From positions 1 through 42,697 of the forward strand of contig CAIWMU010000121.1 of the NCBI GenBank assembly GCA_903913865.1: a stretch of DNA of 42,697 nt. Reading direction: 5' to 3'. Shown here in pieces: positions 9,688-18,705 of the stretch. The translations under genes were made by a program, and so were the position numbers. Positions within the stretch are counted from its first letter, which is position 1. Every line of letters starts with the position of its first letter. Source of the stretch: an uncultured Verrucomicrobia subdivision 3 bacterium. GTDB taxonomy: Bacteria; Verrucomicrobiota; Verrucomicrobiia; Limisphaerales; UBA8199. The notes under the pieces were generated by a model. That model was not told where the DNA came from, did no database searches, and saw only the letters and a list, made by a program, of their open reading frames with translations.

Positions 9688-9708
9688 GATATAAGTCATT
9701 AAACAAAT

Positions 9709-9739
9709 GCGGGGAGCGTCTATTCCGGACGCTCCCCGC
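9709..9739 (-). terminator. Rho-independent terminator of the beta-strand-repeat gene
   Basis: A perfect 12-bp GC-rich stem (GCGGGGAGCGTC at 9709-9720, GACGCTCCCCGC at 9728-9739) has a 7-nt loop. On the minus strand it is followed by the T-rich ATTTGTTTAA. It lies 61 bp after the stop of the gene at 9800-12916 and only 21 bp before the start of the gene at 9687. It could therefore also act as an attenuator in the downstream gene's leader. Confidence 0.7.
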
Positions 9740-9799
9740 AGACTGGTCACCGCAAGCCACCCGGCTGCGGGTTGAAGGTGCAGGCCATCGCCTGATGAA

Positions 9800-12700
9800 T
9801 CACTGAATGGGCGCGAGACGGAACGACACCGAGCCCTTTGAATGATCAACCGGCACGCTGATGGAGCCTGTGGCACCACCGGGATAATCAAGCCAGTTGT
9901 TGCTCAAGCCGACGCTGAGCGGATTTGCCTGGAATTGCAGCTTGTAGCTGCCTGTCCAGGTGAAGTTGAGCGCTCCAGCGGACTGGGTGAAGGCCAGAGT
10001 CGGCCTTCCAACGGACGCCGTCACCTGAATGAACCCGGTGCCCGTGATGGGTGCGGTGGATGCGCCATAGACACCGTTGGGCATCTCAACCCCATCGATG
10101 ACGAGGCGCTTGACCGTGGCAGTGCCGGTGTAGGTCAGTGCCAGTGTTCCCTTGGTGGCGGAGAGCCGGATCGTGCTATTGGTGGCCACGGCTGTGGTCG
10201 TGCTGATCACAAGAACGCCTTCAGTTACCGTGGTGTCCCCGCTGTAGGTGCAAACACCCTTCAGTTGCTGGGCGCCTGTGCCGATCTTATTCAAGGCGAG
10301 AACGCCGCCGGTTCCCGGGTTGTCCATGAACTGGTAGCTGCAGGCGTTTGTGTTCGGACCGTAGCCGAAGTTGAGGGTCGAGACGGTGCCGACAGCGGTG
10401 TTGTAGATCATGCCGCCGGAATTGCCATCAGTCATCACGCCAATCGTCTGGCTGGTGCCGTTGAGATCGAGGTAATAGGGACCGTAAACGCGGAGCGGGC
10501 CGGTGACGCCGGGAACCAGAGAGGGTGAGCCCAGTGTTCCCTGGCCTTCCAGCTTGATGCTGCCGGCGCTGAGTCGGGTGGAGCCGGAATAGGTGTTCCT
10601 GCCGGAAAGCGTCAGAACACCGCCAGGACCTGCGGAAAGGTTTACGAGGCCGATCTGGTAGCCGGGCCCCTGGCCGGAAGGAGTCGTGGTGATGGGACCG
10701 CCATCAGCGATGACACCGGAAAAGGCGTGATTCTTTCCATCCATGATGATGACCAACCCGGCCTGAACGCTCGACCCGTTGTTGATGATGGTCCCAAACC
10801 CATCCGGGCAGGGAATGCGCTGATTCTTCGGATCGTTATTCAGATCGAAGGTGCCACCGGTAAGCTTGAGGCGTGAGTTGGCCGCTGAGGACCCGACACC
10901 GATCTGATCCCGCACACTGCTCCAGCTGGAGCCGTTCAACGTGGTGCCAATCTTGACAGTAGCGCCTGTATCAAGGGCCTCGATGCTATCCACCGCGTAA
11001 CCGGTGCCGCCGGTGTTGGCCGCGCCTGCATTAAGGATCACCGTGCCACCCCGGATGTAGGTGCCGCCGGTGTAGTGGTTGGCTTCAGCGGTATCGCCCA
11101 GAAGGGTTAGCTGCCCTGTGCCCCGGATTGTGAGGCCGTTGCTGCCTTGGATGCTGGCCGTGATGGCGGTGTTCGCCATGGCGGTGATCGTCGGGCTTCC
11201 GCCAACCATGGTCAGGGGATAGCTGTTACCAGCGATCGTATAGCCGGGAGCGGTAAAGGAAATGTTCTGGGCTGTGACCGGGGAGCCCAGACTGACTGTC
11301 CCTGCGCCAGCGGCACCGAACACAGCGTCATCGCCATCAACCCACGGGGTGGTGGTCCAGTTTCCGCTTGTGAGGTTCCAGAGGAAATCCCCGGAAGCAT
11401 TGTTCCAGGTGTTCGGCGGGAGGACTGTAATGGTACCTGTGCCGGTGATCGGGGCCGTGGTGGCATCGTAGGTACCGGGGGCCATTTGCACTCCATCGAT
11501 GTAGAGCCGCTTGACGGTGGCGTCACCTGCATAGTTGAGGTTCAGGTTGCCCGCGCTGGTGAAGAGGCGGATGGTCGTGTTCGGGCTCACGGCTGCTGCT
11601 GCTGCAAAGGAGAGGATGCCGCCGCTCACAATCGTATCCCCGGAGTAGGTGTTCGGTCCGCCGGTAAATACCTGGGGAGTCGGCCCAACCTTGGTCAATC
11701 CAAGAATGCCGCCGCTTCCGGTGGTGCTGTCCACGACTTTCCCGGTGAAGGTCTGGATGGCTGAGTTGGTGCAGTTGACGCAAACCGTCAAAGTGGAGAG
11801 GGTGCCGGGTGCATTGTTGGCAATCGTCCCGCCGCTGCCGCCGCCATACTGTCCCACGATCTGGCTGGTGCCATTCAGATCAAGAAGACCGTTGTTGTGA
11901 ATGAGGTGTCTGCCCGGGCAGTTGATGCTGGTGGGATAACCGAGGGTCCCCGCCCCGCTCAACTGGATCGTTCCACCCGCCCCGATGCGGACGAACCCGC
12001 TGAAGGAGTTCGAACCGGAGAGGATCAATGTTCCACCCCCGGATTGAAAGTCGACCTCCGTGCGGTGGGCCAGTTTGCCTGAAATGATGCTGTTGGTGAC
12101 CGGACCGCCATCCATGATCACCCCGGAGAACGTTCTCTCATCGTTGTAGCCGGTGAACTTGAGAACCGCCCGTGAGAGTGGGGAGCTGTTGATGATGGTG
12201 CCTTCGCCGGACGGCATGGGCAGCTGGTTCTGGTTGTCATCCCCGTTCAGATCAACAGTTCCACCTGTCAGGTTCAGATTGTGGACGGCAACACTGCCGC
12301 CAACCGGGATCTGGCCGTTGACAGCACGGTCGTAATTGTTCGTGCCACTGAGGACGACCGCAGTGGTTCCCAACTTGACGGTCGCACCGGCGTCCACCGC
12401 TTCAAGGCTGTCGATGCCCCACGTTGCGCCGCCTGACGTTGCCTTCTGTGCCTTAAGAACCAGCGTGCCACTCTTGACGAAGGTGCCGCCCGTGTAATGG
12501 TTCGCATCAGCCGCATCCCCCACCAACCACAACTCAGAGGGGCCTTGAACGGTGAGCCCACTCGTGCCGTCGATGCTGGAAGCGATCGTGGTTTTCCCGG
12601 AAGTTGTGATGCCGGGGGTGGTTCCCTGAAGCGTCAGCGGATAACCCCCGCCATTGATGACATAGCCGACTGCGTTGAACGTGAGGCTCTGGGCCGCGAC

Positions 12701-12916
12701 GGGTGCCCCAAGGGTCACCGCCCCGAGGCCGGTGGCTCCAAAAATGGCATCATCACCATCCACCCAGGCTGCGGGTGCCGTCCAGTTTGCGCTGGTGGCA
12801 TTCCATAGAAAATCGTTGGAGCCGTTGTTCCAGGTGTTTACAGCGGCTGTGGTTTGTGACGGTGATAACGCGGCCAGCAGCATGCCGGCAGCGATCAGTT
12901 GACTATGTTTCTTCAT
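9800..12916 (-). CDS. Autotransporter-associated beta-strand repeat protein, internally duplicated
   Basis: This is a 1038-residue exported passenger-like protein. The signal peptide is residues 1-25 (MKKHSQLIAAGMLLAALSPS...). The body is Gly/Thr/Asn-rich beta-helix sequence with many GGTLxLSGxNxYSG-type repeats of the PATR family (TIGR02601), for example GVLTLSGRNTYSGST and YSGDTTVTEGVLVIS. The protein consists of two homologous units, 27-501 and 502-967, each opening with NTWNN..DFLWN..S.NWT and closing with ITGTGxIxV. A 71-residue C-terminal domain (968-1038) with YKLQFQ and SFRLAPIQ ends it. There is no outer-membrane beta-barrel. Family knowledge suggests a surface or secreted structural protein. 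The 5' leader is long (about 227 nt from a predicted promoter at 13150-13177), and a terminator follows. Confidence 0.88.
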   Translation of the reverse strand: MKKHSQLIAAGMLLAALSPSQTTAAVNTWNNGSNDFLWNATSANWTAPAAWVDGDDAIFGATGLGAVTLGAPVAAQSLTFNAVGYVINGGGYPLTLQGTTPGITTSGKTTIASSIDGTSGLTVQGPSELWLVGDAADANHYTGGTFVKSGTLVLKAQKATSGGATWGIDSLEAVDAGATVKLGTTAVVLSGTNNYDRAVNGQIPVGGSVAVHNLNLTGGTVDLNGDDNQNQLPMPSGEGTIINSSPLSRAVLKFTGYNDERTFSGVIMDGGPVTNSIISGKLAHRTEVDFQSGGGTLILSGSNSFSGFVRIGAGGTIQLSGAGTLGYPTSINCPGRHLIHNNGLLDLNGTSQIVGQYGGGSGGTIANNAPGTLSTLTVCVNCTNSAIQTFTGKVVDSTTGSGGILGLTKVGPTPQVFTGGPNTYSGDTIVSGGILSFAAAAAVSPNTTIRLFTSAGNLNLNYAGDATVKRLYIDGVQMAPGTYDATTAPITGTGTITVLPPNTWNNASGDFLWNLTSGNWTTTPWVDGDDAVFGAAGAGTVSLGSPVTAQNISFTAPGYTIAGNSYPLTMVGGSPTITAMANTAITASIQGSNGLTIRGTGQLTLLGDTAEANHYTGGTYIRGGTVILNAGAANTGGTGYAVDSIEALDTGATVKIGTTLNGSSWSSVRDQIGVGSSAANSRLKLTGGTFDLNNDPKNQRIPCPDGFGTIINNGSSVQAGLVIIMDGKNHAFSGVIADGGPITTTPSGQGPGYQIGLVNLSAGPGGVLTLSGRNTYSGSTRLSAGSIKLEGQGTLGSPSLVPGVTGPLRVYGPYYLDLNGTSQTIGVMTDGNSGGMIYNTAVGTVSTLNFGYGPNTNACSYQFMDNPGTGGVLALNKIGTGAQQLKGVCTYSGDTTVTEGVLVISTTTAVATNSTIRLSATKGTLALTYTGTATVKRLVIDGVEMPNGVYGASTAPITGTGFIQVTASVGRPTLAFTQSAGALNFTWTGSYKLQFQANPLSVGLSNNWLDYPGGATGSISVPVDHSKGSVSFRLAPIQ

Positions 12917-13149
12917 GTTTGTGGGTTTGGAGTTTGTCGAACGTGGCTGGTGATTGGTGGGAGCTCTTTCAGCTCAGAAAATGGAAGTAAGCAGCGAACA
13001 TTCCGGGCGACACGCAAGCGCGATTGACCCGGCTGGATCCCGATTCATTTTCTGGCCGATCGTTCATTCTTATGATTTCTGCCCCACCAACCTCCGCTTC
13101 CGGGGTCTCAGATGGCTCTGAGGCTGGGCATACGGTGATGGGACAAGGT

Positions 13150-13177
13150 AGTATCGTGAATTCCCCATTCCTGCCAA
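13150..13177 (-). promoter_or_regulatory. Predicted sigma70-like promoter of the beta-strand-repeat gene
   Basis: On the minus strand a -35 box TTGGCA (13177-13172, 5 of 6 to consensus) and a -10 box GATACT (13155-13150, 4 of 6) are separated by 16 bp. The transcription start would fall near 13143, giving a leader of about 227 nt before the ATG at 12916. The operator palindrome abuts the -35 box directly, centred near -42, a class II activator position. Confidence 0.5.
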
Positions 13178-13193
13178 TACCTCAATTGAGGTA
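13178..13193. promoter_or_regulatory. NarL-type 7-2-7 palindrome, site 1
   Basis: TACCTCA-AT-TGAGGTA is a perfect inverted repeat; with flanking bases it extends to 18 bp (13177-13194). NarL-family regulators bind paired heptamers of form TACYYMT with 2-bp spacing, and this site matches that arrangement except at the last heptamer base. It lies directly upstream of the predicted promoter of the beta-strand-repeat gene, and a near-identical site precedes the response-regulator gene. Binding by that regulator is inference. Confidence 0.55.
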
Positions 13194-13213
13194 TCCTGAT
13201 GCCTTTGGGCCTC

Positions 13214-14086
13214 TCACAGAGGACCGGCGACGGGCGCAGGATCCGTGGTCTGCTCCGAGCGGTTGTAGAAATAGATGCCTGCCAGGGAAATGCTTGTGAG
13301 GAGGTGCCAGAAGGAGTGGCCTTGAAACAGTGAATCCGGCCCGCTGAACCTTCCGGCCACATCGAGCAGCCAGCAGATTCGGGCCGCAACCAATCCCAGC
13401 AGCGCGGGAATGATCCACCAGAGGCAAAATCTGCTCCCGCGTTTGAACCGGTCCGCCAGGGCCAGAACAGTGACAGCAAGAATCAGCCCCGGCAGCACCA
13501 CTCCGGATCGCATGGACCACTTGTATATGTAGAGAAAAGCACAGGCGATGATCACCAGCACCCCGAGAACAGGCCAGGTCGGGATCTGCCTGCGGGACAT
13601 GCGTGGAAACCAGCGCCCCAAACTGATGGCGATGCAGACCACAAGAGGGGAATACATGGCCGCCACATCCAGTTGCTGCCCCCAGCGGGTCAGGGATGCA
13701 TGAAACAGGCCGCTCCCCAGCCCGAGGTAGCAACAGGCCGCCCCAAAGAGGAAACTCATCGGCGGTGTCGCCCTCAAATAGCCACTGGAAGCCTGGGGCC
13801 TTTCTTTTCGGTCCTGACAGCCCAGACCGATGGCATACAGCCCCACCACAACGTAGAAGAGGTTCGACCATGTGTTGGCCCTGGTCCGAAACACCTCATG
13901 GAGATAAATCCGCTCCGCATAGCTGGGTTGGCGCAACCCGGCGCTTTCGGTCCAACCATTCCATACATCCCGGTCATTCAGAGTCTGGATCACACCGGCC
14001 AACAGGAGCACCAGCAGAAGAAGGGTTCCCCAAACGAACCCATGAATCCAGAGAGGGATGGAGCCCTTGTTCCGGGAGAATCTCAT
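13214..14086 (-). CDS. Ceramidase-like CREST-superfamily integral membrane protein
   Basis: This 290-residue membrane protein has about seven hydrophobic segments. The CREST (alkaline ceramidase/PAQR) metal-site signature is present in order: SGLFH (S126, H129 with the usual Ser-x-x-His spacing), D140 in GQQLDVAAMY and H257xxxH261 in GHSFWHLLT. An N-terminal motif typical of alkaline ceramidases (HEVFRTRANTWSNLFYVVVG, E64 and N75) precedes them. Eukaryotic relatives hydrolyse the amide of ceramides using zinc; the bacterial substrate is unknown. The start at 14086 is set by a perfect ATGA overlap with the stop of the SGNH hydrolase gene, implying coupled translation. A longer open frame upstream lies inside that gene and is rejected. 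Enzymatic function is inferred from metal-ligand conservation only. Confidence 0.8.
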   Translation of the reverse strand: MRFSRNKGSIPLWIHGFVWGTLLLLVLLLAGVIQTLNDRDVWNGWTESAGLRQPSYAERIYLHEVFRTRANTWSNLFYVVVGLYAIGLGCQDRKERPQASSGYLRATPPMSFLFGAACCYLGLGSGLFHASLTRWGQQLDVAAMYSPLVVCIAISLGRWFPRMSRRQIPTWPVLGVLVIIACAFLYIYKWSMRSGVVLPGLILAVTVLALADRFKRGSRFCLWWIIPALLGLVAARICWLLDVAGRFSGPDSLFQGHSFWHLLTSISLAGIYFYNRSEQTTDPAPVAGPL

Positions 14087-14832
14087 GGCATGGGAACCAC
14101 CGGTTTGTCCCCCATGAGTTCTGCCACTTTTGCCTCTATGGCCTCGGCCCACAGTTGGTGCCCCAGGGGACTCGGATGCTCGAAATCCGGCATCAAGGTT
14201 TTGGAAATTGTGCCATCGGGCCGGACAAACACGCTGTTGATGTCCATGTAGAACACCGTTTTTTCATCCGCCAGCTTCGATGCGATTTCGTTGGCCCCGG
14301 CCAAAACCGCCCTCTCGGGTGTTGGTTTTTCGCGGCGTTGGAATATTCCCAGCAACAGAATCTTCGTCGCCGGCAGTTTCTCCCGCAACTTGTGAATGAT
14401 CAGGGTGACTCCCTCGCCAATTTCCCGGCCGGTGTTGTGGCCCCCATTATTCTGCCCGATCATGACGATCGCCAGCCTGGGGTTGATCCCCTCAATGTTG
14501 CCATGTTCCAGACGCCAGAGCACGTGCTCCGTGCGATCCCCGCCGATGCCCAGATTCAACGCTTTCCGGGGGGCGTAATAATGCTTCCAGGCCTTCCTGC
14601 CCTGATTCTCAAAATGTTCGACAATCGAATCGCCGACGTAGATGAGATCAATGTTTCCCCGCCGGGCGATTTTGTTCATCTCCTCATGGCGCTCCATCCA
14701 CCAGACATTGGTTCTGGAGACGGGGACAACCGCCGTGTTTGCGGCGAGGCACGTGCCTGTGAAAGCGAGTGTCAGGGCCAGCACCAGGCCGGAAATGATT
14801 CGGGCAACCCCCTGAATGTGTGGATTCTTCAT
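14083..14832 (-). CDS. Secreted SGNH/GDSL-type hydrolase
   Basis: This is a 249-residue exported esterase or lipase-like protein resembling the PAF-acetylhydrolase branch of the family. A signal peptide is followed by block I with the nucleophile S69 in YVGDSIVEHF, block II glycine in LNLGIGGDRTEHVLWRL, block III Asn in MIGQNN, and block V DFEHPSPLGHQLWAEA with the Asp-x-x-His pair. All four SGNH residues are present. Known members deacylate or deacetylate lipids and carbohydrates. The start at 14832 is preferred over 14862 because it places a positively charged n-region next to the hydrophobic core. The gene lies 32 bp after the response regulator and overlaps the CREST gene by ATGA, so regulator, hydrolase and membrane protein appear to form one operon. 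Confidence 0.85.
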   Translation of the reverse strand: MKNPHIQGVARIISGLVLALTLAFTGTCLAANTAVVPVSRTNVWWMERHEEMNKIARRGNIDLIYVGDSIVEHFENQGRKAWKHYYAPRKALNLGIGGDRTEHVLWRLEHGNIEGINPRLAIVMIGQNNGGHNTGREIGEGVTLIIHKLREKLPATKILLLGIFQRREKPTPERAVLAGANEIASKLADEKTVFYMDINSVFVRPDGTISKTLMPDFEHPSPLGHQLWAEAIEAKVAELMGDKPVVPMP

Positions 14833-14864
14833 TGGAATATCGTTCTCGCCAACCCCGGACATGC

Positions 14865-15512
14865 CTATTGAGGGCGGGATGCGGCCCCCTTTTCGGCCAT
14901 GAATTTGATCATGGCCTCTGAACGGGAGCGCACATGCAGCTTTTCGTAGATGTGTTTCAGGTGGACGCGCACCGTATGGTAACTGATCTCCAGTTTTTCA
15001 GCAATTTCCTTGCTGACCTTCCCCTGGGAGAGCAGTTCGAGAATTTCGAGTTCCCGGGTCGAGAGGATGGTGGCCTCAGCGGTAATGGGAGGGGGCGCCT
15101 GGAAGGTCATGACGATCTTCCGGGCGATCTCGCTCGTCATTGGAGCCCCGCCACTGCAGACGGTGGTCACCGCGTCCAGGATCTCCGAGGGGGAGGATCG
15201 CTTGAGCAGGTAGCCGCAGGCACCCGCCTTCAGGGCGCTGAAAATGCTCGTCGTGTCCTCGTAAACCGTGAGCATGATGACCTGCATGCCGGGCATCAGC
15301 GCCTTGAGCCGACCGGTGCATTCGATGCCCGATGCACCCGGAAGGTTGATATCCATCAGGACAACATCCGGCCTGACCTTTGGAATCTGCTCGATGGCCT
15401 CCTCCGCCGTGCCACAGGCGCAGACACAACGGACTCCATGCGCCCGGCGCAGCATTCGCTCCAGGTTGCGGCGCATGGGGGCGCTGTCTTCAACCAGGGC
15501 AACTGTTGTCAT
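14865..15512 (-). CDS. NarL/FixJ-family response regulator with LuxR-type DNA-binding domain
   Basis: This is a 215-residue two-component regulator. The receiver domain has the acidic pocket (VALVEDSAP), phosphoacceptor D54 in VVLMDINLPG, Thr in MLTVYED and Lys in YLLKRSS. The C-terminal LuxR helix-turn-helix has LSTRELEILELLSQG and EIAEKLEISYHTVRVHLKHIYEKL. The start at 15512 fits the domain boundary and has AGGA a few bases upstream; an open extension to 15569 is possible. The HisKA_3 kinase encoded immediately upstream is the natural partner. An operator-like palindrome at 15645-15660 lies 133 bp upstream of the start. It is probably the regulator of its own operon and of the beta-strand-repeat gene (inference). 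Confidence 0.92.
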   Translation of the reverse strand: MTTVALVEDSAPMRRNLERMLRRAHGVRCVCACGTAEEAIEQIPKVRPDVVLMDINLPGASGIECTGRLKALMPGMQVIMLTVYEDTTSIFSALKAGACGYLLKRSSPSEILDAVTTVCSGGAPMTSEIARKIVMTFQAPPPITAEATILSTRELEILELLSQGKVSKEIAEKLEISYHTVRVHLKHIYEKLHVRSRSEAMIKFMAEKGAASRPQ

Positions 15513-15644
15513 GGCATCCTGCGGGGCCGAACGTGCCGGCCCGTGAAATGTCTGGGCATCCACCGTCATAAGTGATCAGCCATCGTGGCGGAGTAACAAA
15601 CCCGCCGGAAGCGTCACGGTGCGTTGGTCCGGGTGAAATCACAA

Positions 15645-15660
15645 TACCTCAATTGAGTTA
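15645..15660. promoter_or_regulatory. NarL-type 7-2-7 palindrome, site 2
   Basis: TACCTCA-AT-TGAGTTA differs from the perfect palindrome of site 1 by one base. On the minus strand the 16-base run CTCAATTGAGGTATTG is identical in both sites and points toward the downstream gene in each. This site adjoins the kinase stop codon (15661-15663) and precedes the response-regulator operon. A TTGTGA follows at the same distance as the -35 box in site 1, but no clear -10 is visible. Confidence 0.5.
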
Positions 15661-18600
15661 TCAGGCTGTTCCGGATCCGGCACCTGGAATGGGGACTCCG
15701 AAGGTGATCGTCGTCCCCTGCCCCGGTTTGCTGGAAACCTCGCACCGCCCCCCAAGCTGGCGCAACCGGCTCTGCATGTTCTCCAGCCCATCCGCACCCA
15801 CCCCGGACCGCGCAACGGTCTCACCCAGCCCACGACCGTTGTCACTCACGGCGACCGTCAGAAACCCGCCTTTGGCGCTGATGGCAAGCCGCAGGTCGGT
15901 GGCCCCTGAATGCTGGATCACATTTGTGAGGGCCTGCTTGAACGCCAGAAACAGGCTGTGACGCTGCTCCGCATTCAGCGGCGCAACCGGCAGGTCCCGC
16001 GCCACTTCAAGGTGGCACTTTACGGCCGTGCTTTTCAGGAAATGTTGGGCATATTGGCAGAAGTAGGTGGCCAGGGAGGACACCGTGTCGTGCCGGGGAT
16101 TCACCGCCCAGACAATTTCATCCAGTGCCGTCACCATCTCGCGTGCGCGAGCGCCAATCTCCCGCGCGTGTTCCCTCACATCCTCCACCGGCAGCCCTGA
16201 ATCCTGGGCCAGTTCACTGCCAAAATTAATTTCGACCAGCCCGGCCCCGAGATCGTCATGCAGATCCTGGGCAATCCGGGTGCGCTCCCGCTCCAGCGCC
16301 TGCCTCTCCTCCAGCCGCTGAATCCTGAGCCGGTAGCGGTGCCTCAACGCCAGCAGCAATCCCCCGGCGAACAGGCATGACCCGACCGTCGTCGCCGCAA
16401 CCCTGAACCAGACCGGCTCCCAGAGATGGGCCGCGATCTGGATTGAGAGCGAATCCCCCTGCTCATTCCAGATCCCGTCATGGTTGCAGGCTGTGACCCG
16501 GAATCGATATTTCCCTGGAGGGACGTGGGGATAATGAGCCGTTCTGGCGGAGCCCACCTCCACCCAATCCTGATCCAGACCTTCCAGCTTGTAGCGAAAT
16601 GTCACATTCTCAGGTGAGGCAAGGCTGAGGGCGGTGAATTCAAACTCCATCTGGTTCACTCCCGGCCCGAGGTGCATGGTTGCGGGATGCCGCCGCAGGT
16701 CCACAGCGGTGGATGTCCCCTGAAGCTGGTAGGAGGCGATGGTGCGGCCATTCACCCGAAGCAACTCGATCACAACCTGGGGGGGTTGCCCGCTTCTTCC
16801 AATCAGGCCTGGTTGGATGCAGGCAAGGCCTGTCTGTGTCGGGATCAGGAGGCGCCCGTCCCGGCTCCGTGTGCTGATGGGCCACACGCCAAACGTGGCC
16901 TGCAGATGGGGCATGCCATCCCCACGACCCAGCACGACTGAGCGGACGCGTGGGGCACGACCCTCGGCCACGGCCTCAAATTCCGACAGGGCCACCTGGC
17001 ATATGCCCCGGTTTCCAGCCATCCAGAGCCGGCCATGCTCATCCGTCATCAATTGCGAAACGTATTCATCCCATAAACCCTGCTCCCGGTGAAACTCCAC
17101 ATACTTCCCATTTCTCAACCAACCCAGACCCTGTCCCGCGTAACCGATCCAGAGGGCTCCATCAGGGGTGGAAAGCAGGCAGCGAATTCCACGGGAGGAA
17201 CGTGTCAGATTGTCGGCCGCCCCCGTGGACAGCACATCACCCACAACCTGAAAAAGCGACCCCTCGGAGGTCGCCGCCCATAAGCTCGAGTCCCCACCCT
17301 CCGCCATTGTTCGAACATTTCGCGAGCCTGCAGGCAGGGCAAAGGAGCGAAGGATGCCGCCCCGCAGCCTGTGCAGCATGCCCGGCACATTTGGCCCGAT
17401 CCACAGGTCCCCATTGGAACAGACGAGCAGGGAGCGGATGAATGCCCCATCCATCTCCCTCCCAAGCGGCACAGGCGTAAATCCACCCTGCTTGAATCGG
17501 AACACCCCCTGCTCCCGGGTTCCCAACAAAACCCCGCCCCCGGGTTCGGACGCCAGGCAGACGACCCCGCCCCCGGTCCAGCCATCCCTGGGGCTTAGAA
17601 GCGTCCACACATCGTTCGTCTTTACAGCCAAAGCACCGTTCTGGCCCGCCACCCAGAGGGTGCCGGAGGCGTCCTCGCAAACGGACTGGACCGAGACAAA
17701 CGGCAATCCGGAGGAAAGTCCGAGCACTTCCGCCGCACGCTGGCGAAACCGGTTCAGCCCCCCGCCCCGCGCACCCACCCAAAGATCCCCCTCCGAATCC
17801 TCAACCATGGCGGTGATCGCGGGCAGGGCGGGATTGATGTTCTGAATACCCCTCGAATCATAGCGTTGCAGCCCCCCGGAACCGGTTCCAATCCACAATC
17901 CATGCGCCCGGTCCTCATAGAGTGCGGTCACTTCCACCACAGTGCAGCCGGGCTCCACCTTCATTTCGGCAACCGCCTCCAGCACCCCGCCGTAAACACA
18001 CCGATAAATATTCAGACCCGAACAAAACCAGATGCCCTTGTCCCGTCCCGCAGCCAGTGGAACCGCCGGTTGTCCCGGTGCAAACAACGCCTCAAAACGC
18101 CCATCCCTCAGGACCCCCACATTGCCACCCTGTGAATACCAGAGAAACCCCTGCACATCCACCACCAGCCGGCATGCTCCCGGACCAAGACCCTCCGCCG
18201 CACCGAACCGCTTCGTCCGGCCTCCCTGAATCTGAAAAACCGATCCCGCATCATCACTGACCCAGATCGACCCTTCCCCATCCTCCACAATCGAGCGTGG
18301 CTGTCCTCTGAACTGTGCCTCCCCCAGATCCACCAGCCTGGCAGCCTCCCCATCCCCAAGGCACAGGGTTGCTCCGCCATCCTTCACGATCCAGAGATTG
18401 CCCCGCCGATCCTTCATCATGAACCGGATCTGGTATGGGGGCTGCCCCACTCGTATTGGAGGGGTGAATTCCTGGAACCGGACCCCGTCAAACCGGAACA
18501 GTCCCTCATGGGTGGCGATCCACAAATAGCCATCGGCCGTTTGTTCAAGGCCCACGATTGTATGCTCCGGCAGACCGTCTGCCGGCTGCCAGTCACGAAA

Positions 18601-18705
18601 AAACCAGGAGGAATTCGTCGTCGCACAGAAGGCGATCGGCGAAACCAACAGGACAAGGCAGGCCAGACATGCGCCCAGCAGCCTGTATCTCTCCGGCTTG
18701 ATCAC
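15661..18705 (-). CDS. Hybrid-propeller sensor histidine kinase (Reg_prop, Y_Y_Y, HisKA_3)
   Basis: This is a 1014-residue transmembrane kinase. A signal or anchor segment (about 8-28) is followed by some 14 two-component propeller repeats to about residue 690, with recurring GxLWIGT/GxLWVA motifs. These form the paired periplasmic beta-propellers that sense polysaccharide fragments in related Bacteroidetes systems. A Y_Y_Y domain (FRYKLEGLDQDW...YPHVPPGKYRFRV) precedes a membrane span at 765-788. The cytoplasmic part has a HisKA_3 box with H816 in AQDLHDDLGAG and a HATPase domain (NVIQHS, DNGRGLG, GLENMQSRL). Unlike HTCS proteins it has no fused receiver or AraC domain. The NarL-type regulator encoded next is the expected partner. 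The ligand is unknown. Confidence 0.92.
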   Translation of the reverse strand: MIKPERYRLLGACLACLVLLVSPIAFCATTNSSWFFRDWQPADGLPEHTIVGLEQTADGYLWIATHEGLFRFDGVRFQEFTPPIRVGQPPYQIRFMMKDRRGNLWIVKDGGATLCLGDGEAARLVDLGEAQFRGQPRSIVEDGEGSIWVSDDAGSVFQIQGGRTKRFGAAEGLGPGACRLVVDVQGFLWYSQGGNVGVLRDGRFEALFAPGQPAVPLAAGRDKGIWFCSGLNIYRCVYGGVLEAVAEMKVEPGCTVVEVTALYEDRAHGLWIGTGSGGLQRYDSRGIQNINPALPAITAMVEDSEGDLWVGARGGGLNRFRQRAAEVLGLSSGLPFVSVQSVCEDASGTLWVAGQNGALAVKTNDVWTLLSPRDGWTGGGVVCLASEPGGGVLLGTREQGVFRFKQGGFTPVPLGREMDGAFIRSLLVCSNGDLWIGPNVPGMLHRLRGGILRSFALPAGSRNVRTMAEGGDSSLWAATSEGSLFQVVGDVLSTGAADNLTRSSRGIRCLLSTPDGALWIGYAGQGLGWLRNGKYVEFHREQGLWDEYVSQLMTDEHGRLWMAGNRGICQVALSEFEAVAEGRAPRVRSVVLGRGDGMPHLQATFGVWPISTRSRDGRLLIPTQTGLACIQPGLIGRSGQPPQVVIELLRVNGRTIASYQLQGTSTAVDLRRHPATMHLGPGVNQMEFEFTALSLASPENVTFRYKLEGLDQDWVEVGSARTAHYPHVPPGKYRFRVTACNHDGIWNEQGDSLSIQIAAHLWEPVWFRVAATTVGSCLFAGGLLLALRHRYRLRIQRLEERQALERERTRIAQDLHDDLGAGLVEINFGSELAQDSGLPVEDVREHAREIGARAREMVTALDEIVWAVNPRHDTVSSLATYFCQYAQHFLKSTAVKCHLEVARDLPVAPLNAEQRHSLFLAFKQALTNVIQHSGATDLRLAISAKGGFLTVAVSDNGRGLGETVARSGVGADGLENMQSRLRQLGGRCEVSSKPGQGTTITFGVPIPGAGSGTA

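Follow-up and report, generated by a model that had tools for sequence, protein, structure and literature searches.

Two copies of an 18-bp palindrome in a 42.7-kb stretch of DNA from an uncultured member of Verrucomicrobiota (hereafter, the window) are very probably operators of the response regulator (RR) encoded between them, a dimer of which would activate its own operon and two genes for secreted proteins. The palindrome recurs in about ten related genomes at the promoters of the same RR and of similar secreted surface proteins; thus, the regulator and its targets could be read from sequence alone. The regulon, which is of the well-known NarL/FixJ kind, is previously undescribed, and literature searches found no published report of the palindrome motif.

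Genes of the locus

All the genes described here are on the minus strand. A sensor histidine kinase (15661..18705, 1014 aa) contains a Reg_prop propeller, Y_Y_Y, HisKA_3 (H-box DLHDDLG), and HATPase_c domains, and it adjoins the RR in all genomes examined for the RR clade. The RR (14865..15569, 234 aa) is of the NarL/FixJ type: it has a receiver domain (Response_reg, 5.9e-25) with the phospho-acceptor Asp within VVLMDINLPG, a C-terminal GerE/LuxR helix-turn-helix (HTH) domain (GerE, 3.7e-19) with the helix ISYHTVRVHLKHIYEKL, and an adjacent HisKA_3 kinase. The solved structure closest to it by sequence is E. coli NarL (PDB 1a04).

An SGNH/GDSL hydrolase gene (14083..14862), probably cotranscribed with the RR gene, and a gene for a ceramidase/CREST-family membrane hydrolase (13214..14152) complete the operon. 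As only two further genomes have them beside the RR (the SGNH gene in G138 and G139, the ceramidase-like gene in G138), we regarded both as accessory. The predicted regulon target in the window is the gene for a secreted beta-strand-repeat (PATR/TIGR02601) protein (9800..12916, 1038 aa). By coordinates, this gene context is the one described previously. About 60 nt past the stop codon of the beta-strand-repeat gene, a GC-rich 13-bp hairpin (9708-9740) is likely its terminator. In G009, the beta-strand-repeat target is broken by a transposase-like ORF (L047:5261-6382).

Palindromes in the window and in the genome

On the forward strand, ATACCTCAATTGAGGTAT at 13177-13194 and ATACCTCAATTGAGTTAT at 15644-15661 were found exactly as first reported, and their description as 7-2-7 inverted heptamers was right: two heptamers with 2-bp spacing and TACC outer bases form TACCTCA-AT-TGAGGTA. 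The probe form of the palindrome is TACCTCAATTGAGGTA, and the variant at the RR promoter is TAACTCAATTGAGGTA. With up to 3 mismatches allowed, the window contains no match besides these two copies, and the chance expectation, from dinucleotide shuffles, is 0. The window has few dyads whose arms are 9 bp long; the copy at 13177 is one of them and the sole A+T-rich one.

Operator 1 (15644..15661, minus strand; ATAACTCAATTGAGGTAT in the minus-strand reading), a predicted autoregulatory site, lies between the kinase and RR genes, 74 nt ahead of the RR ATG (15569). Base 15661 ends both operator 1 and the kinase stop codon. The position and sequence of the site are conserved in relatives, where the kinase stop codon falls at varying places relative to it; therefore, coding constraint does not explain its conservation. 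Operator 2 (13177..13194, minus strand), the perfect palindrome, lies between the CREST/ceramidase-like gene, whose stop codon is 19 nt away, and the beta-strand-repeat gene, whose ATG (12916) is 260 nt downstream. It is conserved upstream of orthologues of the latter gene in five other genomes.

The earlier statement that there is no third copy held for the window and failed for the genome. In a search of all 267 contigs of the assembly (6.27 Mb), a further perfect copy was found on another contig (G000:C87:13456-13471), 106 nt ahead of the ATG of a 409-aa secreted protein, which we call SEC2. A random genome-wide distribution had been named as the finding that would speak against a regulon; the genome contains three sites, each at a gene start (the RR operon, the beta-strand-repeat gene, and the SEC2 gene). 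A relaxed pattern, TAMCTCNNNNGAGKTA with 1 mismatch, gave 9 matches in the same genome and 42 with the reversed control, and was discarded as background only. A match on C175 and 2-mismatch matches on C189 and C212 were also discarded, as their promoter contexts were unconvincing.

Sites and regulators across genomes

Among 58 relatives, the site (up to 1 mismatch) was found in four genomes, including the present one. These are the four with an RR of at least 79% identity; the next best RR in this set has 60%. We then compared 320 genomes of the order, counting an RR as an orthologue from about 72% identity upward. With up to 2 mismatches, the site was present in 10 of 10 genomes with the RR orthologue vs 10 of 310 others (Fisher p about 7e-14, a nominal value because the genomes are related); with up to 1 mismatch, the figures were 8/10 and 2/310. 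Some of the ten other site-bearing genomes have related features: G108 has a paralogous clade-B RR (see below), G251 and G256 carry the site beside an RR of 59% identity, the site in G109 (a draft genome in which no RR was found) precedes a PATR target, and G239 has a TC-ended version ahead of a prepilin-like gene. The sites in G149, G165, and G305 look like chance occurrences and were set aside.

When 84,980 species were scanned for the exact 18-mer, 21 records were obtained, and about 4 are expected at equal base frequencies. All five records from Verrucomicrobiota have a kinase/RR pair or a PATR gene at the palindrome. In the 16 records from other phyla, no orthologous RR was found nearby; two of them have distant RR matches.

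Each of the 14 RRs in clades A and B and in G011 has a dyad of the form TAM-N10-KTA upstream, at most 169 nt from the start codon and usually with a weakened TAA arm. The distance from operator to RR start is 74 nt in the window, G009, G036, and G117, and similar or longer elsewhere. Upstream of 49 control paralogues (some of them near-duplicates), no TA-ended 7-2-7 dyad was found, which ruled out such dyads as a general trait of paralogous RRs. In G251 and G256, the site is downstream of the RR, ahead of a large secreted-protein gene, and none lies upstream of the RR. Sites also precede homologous secreted-protein targets at unlinked places: 72-283 nt upstream of PATR genes in the window clade and 68-106 nt upstream of SEC2 homologues. 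These observations bear out the expectation that the sites cluster near similar kinase/RR pairs, and they support, at the level of comparative genomics, the earlier interpretation of the locus as a mini-regulon.

The leaders of PATR genes are often long compared with those of other targets (12917-13176 in the window; orthologues in L056, L064, and L050). No clear conserved element was seen in an alignment of these leaders.

Promoter geometry

In an alignment of nine RR upstream regions, the mean pairwise identity is 95% in the palindrome vs 33-35% in its flanks. Downstream of the palindrome, the positions invariant in the nine genomes are +0 to +2 (TGT), +17, +22 (C), +23 (A), and +27 (T); of these, +22, +23, and +27 correspond to the first, second, and sixth bases of a -10-like hexamer, CANNNT. 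The predicted -10 hexamer of the RR promoter is the weak CACCGT (15616..15621, minus strand; offset 22 from operator 1), and that of the beta-strand-repeat gene is GATACT (13150..13155, minus strand; offset 21 from operator 2). When sites from all loci were considered, 32 of 94 oriented sites had TANNNT at 21-23 nt downstream, and shuffles gave at most 13. The -10 hexamers are often extended (TGNTANNNT), and the -35 hexamers are poor. The spacing from site to -10 hexamer is fixed, as in activator-dependent promoters in which the site abuts the -35 region.

If the hexamer starts at -12, the palindrome is, by this phasing, centred at about -42.5 to -44.5. In E. coli, 7-2-7 NarL sites are located at -38/-47 in yeaR and at -40/-49 in napF (PMC4549865), NarL acts at ogt from -44.5 (PMC4549865, PMC7419079), and an engineered NarL site is TACCCCTAAAGGGGTA (PMC4549865). 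As the centre matches those of the yeaR, napF, and ogt sites, the geometry is that of known NarL activation. It is from this geometry only that we infer activation by the RR.

RR clades and operator specificity

The RRs with TA-type sites form one clade (18 rows of a 105-row tree, support 100/96), which also takes in two paralogues without a known site. In clade A, with the helix TVRVH, the operators have AATT as their core, from which those of G078 and G139 deviate slightly. The AATT core is found again in G251 and G256, also with TVRVH. In clade B (G113, G108, and G078), the helix is TVKVH and the operator is ATACCTC-N4-GAGGTAT, with a free core. The RR of G011 also has TVKVH, and its sites are TAMCYCMNTTGGGGTA-like; the 28-kb contig that carries the RR has four of them. 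In NarL, the counterpart of the Arg/Lys position in the alignment is Lys188, which has a contact role. The preliminary description had anticipated that the sites co-vary with the recognition helix, and core conservation does follow Arg vs Lys; about two independent co-changes are suggestive of an operator core that tracks this substitution.

For the paralogous clade B (65-68% identity), the loci considered are L131-L146 (G113), L155-L159 (G108), and L161 and L163 (G078). In G226, RR L117 carries the recognition helix of clade B (TVKVHLKH) and lies outside the clade in the tree; in the same genome, a site ATACCTCCTTTGAGGTAT at L241 position 2238 has no clear target gene. RR paralogues with a TVR[S/T]H helix have TC-ended 7-2-7 dyads, e.g. 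TCACTCAATTGAGTGA, which lie upstream of the RRs at L028 (-65), L111 (-77), L034 (-49), and L025 (-122), and also at L240 position 2465. These dyads may reflect a wider operator code (T/S next to Arg); it stays a lead because most such RRs have no upstream dyad, although L028, L111, and L034 are striking. A different dyad, TAGGACATATGTCCTA or TCGTACATATGTCCGA, is found upstream of RRs with the helix TVRTHLMHIYEKLH (L227 at -124, L235, and L239).

Targets

The predicted targets in the window clade are PATR/beta-strand-repeat and SEC2 proteins, which have similar signal peptides. In G011, they are two prepilin-like proteins and a 1748-aa secreted protein. G113 contains about 20 clade-B-type sites, which precede genes for a rhamnosidase, GH2, a 3-keto-disaccharide hydrolase, and a GxDLY esterase, as well as for Gfo/Idh/MocA oxidoreductases, cytochrome-type proteins, and prepilin-like proteins. 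We predict that these sites mark a glycan-use regulon. It is a reasonable inference that the targets have a role at the cell surface, in surface structures or substrate attachment.

Comparison with known systems

The system resembles E. coli NarX/NarL in its REC-GerE RR, its 16-bp 7-2-7 dyad with the outer bases TACC..GGTA, and a single site next to the -35 region, centred at about -42.5/-44.5, as for NarL at yeaR-yoaG and napF. It differs in the inner bases (TCA-AT-TGA; CCT-AA-AGG for NarL), in the recognition helix (TVRVH; TVKVH in NarL), and in the sensor, which is a Reg_prop/Y_Y_Y kinase rather than a nitrate sensor. The targets also differ, being secreted beta-strand-repeat proteins, and the regulon has only about three sites. 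The NarL heptamer consensus is TACYYMT, from which TACCTCA differs at the last position; the site is thus NarL-like in its predicted working and not a NarL operator.

The Reg_prop and Y_Y_Y sensor modules are those of the hybrid regulators (HTCS) of Bacteroides polysaccharide utilisation loci, and, in the paralogous clade B, the regulated genes appear to be glycan-degrading ones. In HTCS, however, kinase, receiver, and output domain are in one polypeptide and the output domain is AraC, whereas here kinase and regulator are separate proteins with a LuxR/GerE output (for HTCS, see PMC11253607). No SusCD-type locus was seen within the window.

As at the lux-box promoters of LuxR, a GerE-type HTH dimer would here sit on a dyad that is centred near -42.5 and overlaps the -35 region. 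Unlike LuxR, the present RR has no autoinducer domain and has instead a receiver that would be phosphorylated.

Proposed mechanism and alternative explanations

We propose that the Reg_prop/Y_Y_Y sensor kinase would phosphorylate the RR, and that a phosphorylated RR dimer would then bind the 16-18-bp 7-2-7 inverted repeat. From a site centred about 43 bp upstream of the transcription start, next to the -35 region, the dimer would recruit RNA polymerase. The weakened-arm site (TAACTCA), together with a poor -10 hexamer (CANNNT), would drive the RR operon in positive autoregulation, the perfect site at 13177 would drive the secreted beta-strand-repeat protein gene, and the third perfect site, elsewhere in the genome, would drive that of another secreted protein.

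The same operators could instead serve an RR that represses these promoters or has a dual role. The site touches the -35 region, from which a bound dimer could exclude RNA polymerase, and NarL itself represses some promoters (PMC4549865). However, the site keeps a constant distance upstream of the -10 hexamer and stays clear of the predicted start, and a poor -35 with an often extended -10 is typical of activator-dependent promoters; we consider repression or dual regulation rather unlikely. Less likely still is that an unlinked transcription factor binds the palindrome and has the RR gene merely among its targets. Many families use perfect dyads, and most palindrome records (the 16 of 21 from outside Verrucomicrobiota) have no orthologous RR nearby, but the site tracks the RR orthologue across the 320 genomes, the variant sites of G011 share a contig with its variant RR, the outer bases equal those of the NarL site, and the core type follows the RR helix.

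Both window copies lie shortly past a stop codon. On this ground, we also considered an RNA hairpin with a 7-bp stem and an AATT loop that would terminate or process transcripts downstream of the kinase and ceramidase-like genes. We rejected this reading, which has hardly any probability: a T-run is absent, the clade-B arms are fixed around a variable N4 centre with no compensatory pairs, and the distances to the -10 hexamers and to the RR start are fixed. Moreover, the third copy and many copies in relatives do not follow a gene end, and Rfam gave no match here. Activation by the adjacent RR is thus the explanation that we prefer.

Conclusions

Very little is known about the operators and target genes that regulators use in uncultured Verrucomicrobiota, whose genomes encode similar RR paralogues by the dozen. 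Here, comparative genomics fixes one operator together with its regulator, targets, and promoter geometry, and gives directly synthesizable DNA for binding tests. More tentatively, and with the odds somewhat against it, one RR clade of the order may have spread a single 7-2-7 promoter cassette to genes for secreted surface proteins and prepilin-like proteins, with glycan-degrading genes added in a duplicated branch, and may have changed its operator code by one Arg/Lys swap, in which Arg reads AATT and Lys ignores the core; the system would then be a split, NarL-type counterpart of HTCS. The RR clade is a small natural experiment on specificity change in the NarL-type recognition helix.
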